64,000 nt of DNA. Source: Deltaproteobacteria bacterium HGW-Deltaproteobacteria-2 (GTDB lineage: Bacteria; Desulfobacterota; Syntrophia; Syntrophales; Smithellaceae). Positions 6,175-7,122 of the stretch are shown piece by piece. Below the pieces are notes generated by a model. That model ran no database searches, was not told the DNA's origin, and was given only the letters and a program-made list of their open reading frames with translations. A program made the position numbers and the translations under genes. Every line of letters starts with the position of its first letter. The first letter of the stretch is position 1. The stretch is from contig PHBC01000006.1 in the NCBI GenBank assembly GCA_002840505.1, positions 183,952-247,951 on the forward strand, in the 5' to 3' direction.

Positions 6175-6209
6175 ATTCGATGCACGATCGAATTATATCA
6201 TACACCTCA
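6175..6209 (-). promoter_or_regulatory. SECIS-like element 2 (for the C-terminal UGA)
   Basis: Read on the minus strand, the second UGA (6207-6209) is followed after about 13 nt by a perfect 7-bp stem ATTCGAT/ATCGAAT with loop CGTGC. The hairpin lies after the stop codon, so it is not constrained by coding. A loop with GU about 20 nt after the UGA fits bacterial SelB-binding SECIS elements. Confidence 0.7.
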
Positions 6210-6413
6210 GGTGCCACCATATCCGATAATGACTTTGCTGCCATCAACTATGACAGGTACCTTACGAACACCACCTGTGATATTAAGCATTTCCTGCAAT
6301 CTTAGAATGTCAGACTCAACATCCACGTATTTTGTTTTTTCTCCGAAGGCCGACAGGGCCTTGTCAGTGAATGGTCAACCAGACTTTCCGTATATAATAA
6401 TTTCTTTATCCAT
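6198..6413 (-). CDS. Glutaredoxin-like selenoprotein with two in-frame UGA codons (UXX-star type)
   Basis: 71 residues if UGA at 6375-6377 (codon 13) and 6207-6209 (codon 69) are read as Sec. ATG 6413 has AAGGAGGG about 7 nt upstream. The N terminus reads as a thioredoxin-fold strand plus redox motif, IIIYGKSG-U-PFTDKA, with Sec where glutaredoxins have the first Cys of CxxC. KVPVIVDG gives the cis-Pro region. The end is GGT-U-GV-stop, a Sec two residues from the C terminus, as in the family I know as UXX-star (seleno)protein. Both UGAs have downstream SECIS-like hairpins. Likely a cytoplasmic thiol/selenol oxidoreductase. It lies 142 bp after an ECF sigma gene, same strand, perhaps co-transcribed. 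The plus-strand ORF here is a shadow. selA/selB and tRNA-Sec are not in this window. Confidence 0.85.
6346..6377 (-). promoter_or_regulatory. SECIS-like element 1 (for the redox-motif UGA)
   Basis: On the minus strand UGA (6375-6377) is followed after 12 nt by a perfect 6-bp stem AAGGCC/GGCCTT closing the loop CTGTC (6352-6356). The GU in the apical loop about 18 nt from the UGA fits bacterial SECIS geometry. Confidence 0.75.
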
Positions 6414-6555
6414 AGTGAGTCCCTCCTTATTCAATATTGGCATTTTTGCTTTATAGACGTAAAGGATGTCAAAAAGGATACATTTTATTCTTTTATAAAT
6501 ATGGTGGACTATGGGTTGAAGAAATTAATTATTTAGCGTGTTAGATATAGATTAA

Positions 6556-7122
6556 TTACTTGGGGGTGCAAACTAACTCGTTTCTTTGATCATGATAAAG
6601 AGAACACTCTGTCGTGATATTTTTTCTTAATCTTGTTCGAGCGCGGTGAAGCCTTGTTTTTACGGCATCAAGGGTAATATCCAGAATCTCTGCAATCTCA
6701 CGGTTTTTCATCCCCTCAAATTCACGGAGAAGCAACACAACACGTTCGTTTTCCGGCATTCGCTTAATGATGCGGTGTATGCAGGTATTCATTTCACGCC
6801 TCATAAGACCACTCTCAGCGTCAAGATGCTTTTCCTTTCCAAAAATATCACAATCACAGCTGTCTTCAATTGTATCCAGGGATATTATTGTTTGGCGTGA
6901 CGAGGCTGAACGTCTATTATCTAATGCAACATTGGTGGCGATGCGATAAATCCAAGTAGCAAGACTTGATTCTTCTCTAAAACTTGATAAGTTACGGTTT
7001 ATCTTTTCAAACACTACCTGTGTCAAATCCTCTGCATCGCTCTTGCCAACCATACCGAAAAGATAATGGAAAACTCGATCTCGAAATTCGTCGTGAATTT
7101 GTTGAAAATCAAAAGATGCCAT
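6556..7122 (-). CDS. RNA polymerase ECF sigma factor
   Basis: 188 residues. Region 2 is at about residues 10-75 (FHYLFGMVGKSDAEDLTQVVF, then SSLATWIYRIATNVALDNRR) and region 4 at about 120-165 (MPENERVVLLLREFEGMKNREIAEILDI). The C terminus (ECSLYHDQRNELVC) adds two cysteines, and the linker holds CDCD, so redox or metal sensing is conceivable. No anti-sigma gene is adjacent. The next gene on the same strand is the glutaredoxin-like selenoprotein. The ribosome site (AGGT about 10 nt before ATG) is weak. Confidence 0.88.
   Translation of the reverse strand: MASFDFQQIHDEFRDRVFHYLFGMVGKSDAEDLTQVVFEKINRNLSSFREESSLATWIYRIATNVALDNRRSASSRQTIISLDTIEDSCDCDIFGKEKHLDAESGLMRREMNTCIHRIIKRMPENERVVLLLREFEGMKNREIAEILDITLDAVKTRLHRARTRLRKNITTECSLYHDQRNELVCTPK

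Follow-up and report, generated by a model that had tools for sequence, protein, structure and literature searches.

The question raised by this locus is whether a frame of 71 codons that is interrupted by two UGA triplets encodes one protein with two selenocysteine (Sec) residues. The window, that is, the whole stretch of 64,000 nucleotides that was analysed, carries this frame on its minus strand. The earlier note had proposed the gene, its two Sec codons (UGA 13 and UGA 69) and a SECIS-like hairpin after each, and re-examination placed gene and hairpins at exactly the same positions and with the same sequences. The features concerned are as follows.

6198..6413, minus strand: predicted coding sequence, 71 aa and a UGA stop, for a double selenoprotein of UXX-star family 1 (glutaredoxin-like), MDKEIIIYGKSGU13PFT...GGTU69GV-stop.
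6422..6427, minus strand: Shine-Dalgarno sequence AGGAGG, strong, 8 nt before the ATG, read from the sequence.
6413-6411, minus strand: start codon ATG.
6375..6377, minus strand: UGA codon 13, first putative Sec, in U-P-F-T at the glutaredoxin active-site position; column invariant, Sec or Cys.
6346..6362, minus strand: SECIS-like hairpin 1, AAGGCC[CUGUC]GGCCUU, starting 12 nt after UGA13, within the coding region.
6207..6209, minus strand: UGA codon 69, second putative Sec, in U-G-V-stop; column invariant.
6198..6200, minus strand: UGA codon 72, the true stop; of the 61 double-UGA genes, 30 have UAA or UAG here; hairpin 2 is just 4 nt away.
6175..6193, minus strand: SECIS-like hairpin 2, AUUCGAU[CGUGC]AUCGAAU, starting 13 nt after UGA69, past the stop codon.

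One way to read the locus is as a pseudogene, or two short ORFs, traversed by chance read-through. Consistent with this, the gene escapes plain ORF calling and is absent from a listing of ORFs of at least 60 aa, as had been anticipated of ORF callers. Also, each hairpin taken alone reaches a shuffle P of about 0.01: in the window, hairpin 1 gave P = 0.013 in dinucleotide shuffles and 0.03 in synonymous-codon shuffles, and hairpin 2 gave P = 0.012 in dinucleotide shuffles. The hairpin evidence from the single locus is suggestive, not decisive, each hairpin being moderately unusual by itself, and the Rfam SECIS model found no hit at its gathering threshold in the window. Against chance read-through stand the Shine-Dalgarno sequence of the gene and, above all, its relatives. 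With Cys written for U, the protein scores 96.4 bits against NCBIfam model NF041114, 'UXX-star selenoprotein family 1' (cut-off 72), and a search of the raw genome with the same model recovered the same locus over cut-off, at 81.8 bits, with two TGA codons inside. The protein also exceeds the cut-off of the Uxx_star subfamily model NF041212 (69.4 bits, cut-off 66) and scores 30.2 bits against Pfam Glutaredoxin (PF00462), and it falls below the cut-offs of UXX-star family 2 (NF041211, 41.2 against 100) and family 3 (NF047338, 47.9 against 97). By these scores the gene is a member of UXX-star family 1, a catalogued family common in its phylum. Its double-Sec nature was already known, since a 2026 review lists it with two Sec and the motif UxxT under the name 'Distant Grx-like protein 1 (UXX-star selenoprotein family 1)' (PMC13188914), citing for it a 2008 ocean-metagenome study; the family also appears in PMC9312934. 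The gene had been called hidden, which holds for plain ORF callers and does not hold for the family catalogues.

The occurrence of the family was assessed in 395 sampled genomes of the phylum; it is present over cut-off in 99 of these, most with two TGA codons. Sixty-eight family genes were read from the retrieved loci, a count that includes the window's own gene and in which one region was retrieved twice. UGA occupies both sites in 61 of the 68, Cys is followed by UGA in six, and one further gene combines Cys and UGA with a longer, different tail; the U-x-x-stop ending is kept in 67. Both Sec/Cys columns are invariant in an alignment of 62 proteins, and homologues continue past both UGAs, none of the frames closing at codon 12. 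The expectation that Cys forms would align at both UGAs was borne out at the first, where the six genes and the one with the different tail carry Cys; at the second, no Cys was found among the family members aligned, all of which have UGA. The second site is therefore the more conserved Sec, UGA being retained there even where the first site has Cys. Conservation of both UGAs across many lineages, together with 40-70% identity of the protein to other members, the NF041114 match and the occurrence in 99 of 395 genomes, refutes a pseudogene or chance read-through, to which we attach a negligible probability.

A narrower alternative accepts Sec at UGA13 and takes UGA69 as the stop, so that the protein would end at codon 68. 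The proximity of UGA69 to another stop, just three codons further on, speaks for it; the family speaks strongly against it. Of the 68 genes, 67 have the U-x-x-stop ending, and those that carry Cys in the first position still have UGA in the second. UAA or UAG closes half of the double-UGA genes (final stop UGA in 31 of the 61, UAA in 18 and UAG in 12), and such a mixture of stop codons at the same place indicates that the C terminus is fixed at U-x-x. A hairpin that covaries lies at SECIS distance past UGA69, as set out below. This alternative is strongly disfavoured and very improbable. A third Sec, at UGA72, was also considered and is ruled out: UGA72 is a stop, since the corresponding codon, exactly the third after the second UGA, is UAA or UAG in about half of the genes with two UGAs.

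The significance of the hairpins lies in their conservation across the family and not in the single locus. Over 66 distinct genes, the best stem score downstream of site 2 averaged 18.5, dinucleotide shuffles giving 6.9; for UGA at site 1 the family-wide score was 12.5, against 5.0 in synonymous recoding. The site 1 score was lower in the six Cys genes than in the Sec genes (p = 0.01, few cases). In an alignment of 17 near relatives, hairpin 2 shows compensatory changes, on both sides, in all seven pairs; 87% of cells pair in its register and 27-42% in slid registers, and covariation was 0.695 against 0.26 when shuffled (0/500 shuffles). The stem was picked after viewing the alignment, which biases these figures somewhat in its favour; the compensatory changes and the slid registers lie too far apart for the covariation result to hinge on that choice. 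Folded alone, the 45 nt after UGA69 adopt another hairpin as the minimum-energy structure, and hairpin 2 becomes the optimum once the 5' part covered by the ribosome is left out of the fold. On this alignment the hairpin after the stop, at 6193-6175 as described in the earlier note, is a conserved, strongly covarying stem. Hairpin 1 stands well above synonymous-codon expectation family-wide, and the proposal of a SECIS-like hairpin after each UGA is thereby upheld.

The genome also encodes the selenocysteine machinery, for which it had been proposed that a search be made. SelA (628 bits), SelB (377 bits, the sole SelB over cut-off), SelD (383 bits, G000:C5:258649-259578) and a canonical tRNA-Sec (73.8 bits, anticodon UCA) were all found. 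The selD frame, too, contains a UGA, at the position where SelD usually has Sec; a hairpin AGGUC-CGGGA-GACCU follows it in the sequence, with a short stem and a 5-nt loop like hairpin 1 of the UXX-star gene. UGA13 and UGA69 are almost certainly both read as selenocysteine. In the proposed mechanism, SelB and Sec-tRNA-Sec would decode UGA13 through hairpin 1, within the coding region, and UGA69 through hairpin 2, just past the stop codon; UGA72 would terminate because it lies too close to a hairpin. The double-Sec interpretation of the earlier note is thus supported, nothing that would have spoken against it having been found. Very probably the product is a glutaredoxin-fold selenoprotein of 71 residues that belongs to UXX-star family 1, with both UGAs decoded through hairpins and UGA72 terminating. 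Gene, family membership and decoding signals are established from the sequence, whereas selenium in the product and its chemistry are inferred.

The residue inserted could nevertheless be Cys at one or both UGAs, wholly or in part, if SelB carried a selC*-type tRNA-Cys(UCA), for example when selenium is scarce, giving a Sec/Cys mixture. The genome has a second tRNA-Sec-like gene with the UCA anticodon, outside the window (G000:C1:453454-453547), with an 8-bp acceptor stem and a 4-bp T stem (8/4 branch), a variable arm, discriminator U73 and no encoded CCA. This tRNA was found in 22 of 39 genomes of the same taxonomic family, and in its alignment U73 is kept in 17/17 and UCA in 16/17 sequences. 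A selC* tRNA-Cys with an 8/4 branch, U73 and a UCA or GCA anticodon has been described as translating Sec UGA with Cys (PMC7609411; PMC11415595), and linked selB* has been reported in Syntrophobacterales and Desulfobacterales. The second UCA tRNA may thus be a selC*-like candidate tRNA-Cys, in which case some UGAs would be read as Cys. Against a role at the UXX-star gene, no selB* or cysS* is linked to this tRNA, the single SelB over cut-off being about 177 kb away, and in three congeneric genomes the tRNA occurs without a UXX-star match. We consider insertion of Cys at these UGAs unlikely. The broader possibility that Sec UGAs are dual-use in this bacterial family, tRNA-Sec and a SelB-delivered selC*-like tRNA-Cys(UCA) competing for them, is likewise given a small chance; if true, selenium supply would determine whether the glutaredoxin carries Se-Se, Se-S or S-S pairs. 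A second full-length CysRS match (374 bits) was observed at G000:C6:75743-77131, inside an open frame of 782 codons, the usual CysRS scoring 557 bits.

With Sec as the favoured residue at both positions, the product has no cysteine, and Sec13 and Sec69 are its sole chalcogen groups; other Cys residues are likewise absent from 58 of 60 distinct double-UGA proteins. The AlphaFold model shows a confident, small glutaredoxin fold (pLDDT 89.1, pTM 0.74), and the best PDB matches of the model in Foldseek are glutaredoxins, including cGrx2 (4TR0/4TR1), with query TM-scores up to 0.76 and modest E-values, none at 0.001 or below. The frame had been described as thioredoxin-fold; profile and structure matches make it, more precisely, glutaredoxin-like. 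Sec13 sits at the catalytic position with Thr in place of the resolving Cys, and Sec69 lies in a short tail where a glutaredoxin would run on into a helix. As the product has no Cys, the two Sec would pair with each other, react with an outside thiol or form a metal-binding pair. Metal binding has also been suggested for the UXX-star family (PMC13188914). We infer joint action of the two selenols, which would either form a diselenide redox pair or, as two selenolates, bind a soft metal or metalloid. Most likely the protein would serve in redox chemistry or metal binding, with a glutaredoxin fold and two selenols as its reactive groups.

Gene neighbourhood was also analysed. In the window, an ECF-type sigma factor (6556-7122, minus strand) ends about 140 nt upstream of the UXX-star gene on the same strand, and the downstream neighbour is DUF1796. 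Among 39 downstream neighbours of family genes there are seven NDK, six rubrerythrin and five lysine-decarboxylase-like genes, and the commonest family among 52 upstream neighbours occurs five times. A conserved operon partner is rejected, no neighbour being dominant on either side. The neighbours in the window give no clue to function, and no conserved neighbour in the family indicates a substrate. Two relatives from the same taxonomic family, L051 (G229) and L052 (G067), have a glutaredoxin-like gene, with a CPFC motif in L051, whose neighbours resemble, by eye, permease genes and a gene for a low-molecular-weight phosphatase/arsenate reductase of the ArsC type.

These results indicate that a reading made without tools can recognise a double selenoprotein missed by plain ORF callers. 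They also provide a clean family-wide demonstration that the second predicted Sec, at the third codon from the end, has its covarying SECIS-like hairpin located after the stop. With 58 of 60 double-UGA members devoid of other Cys, the family is well suited for testing a glutaredoxin-fold or metal-binding site built of two selenols only, and, given the coexisting UCA tRNA-Cys-like gene, whether Sec or Cys is inserted becomes a testable question. The post-stop SECIS covariation and this coexisting tRNA gene most deserve the attention of specialists.

Bacterial SECIS elements of the E. coli type, such as that of fdhF, are stem-loops a short distance after UGA that are read by SelB. The hairpins described here are likewise stem-loops a short distance past UGA; they differ in having a short stem of 6-7 bp with a 5-nt loop, and in that the second lies past the stop. 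The second UCA tRNA resembles selC* tRNA-Cys in its 8/4 branch, U73 and UCA anticodon, and differs from those reported in lacking a linked selB*. With UXX-star family 1 the gene shares U-P-[FY]-T near the N terminus, the C-terminal U-x-x-stop and two Sec per protein; nothing essential differs, the identity range given above being that to 61 other aligned members, and the raw-genome score is toward the lower end for the family. UXX-star families 2 and 3 and the Uxx_star model have in common with the protein a glutaredoxin-like fold and the C-terminal star motif. Glutaredoxins (PF00462), such as cGrx2, share its fold and the position of the catalytic residue, whereas the protein described here is shorter, lacks the CxxC/UxxC pair and, in the model, the C-terminal helix, and has an extra Sec predicted at its C terminus.
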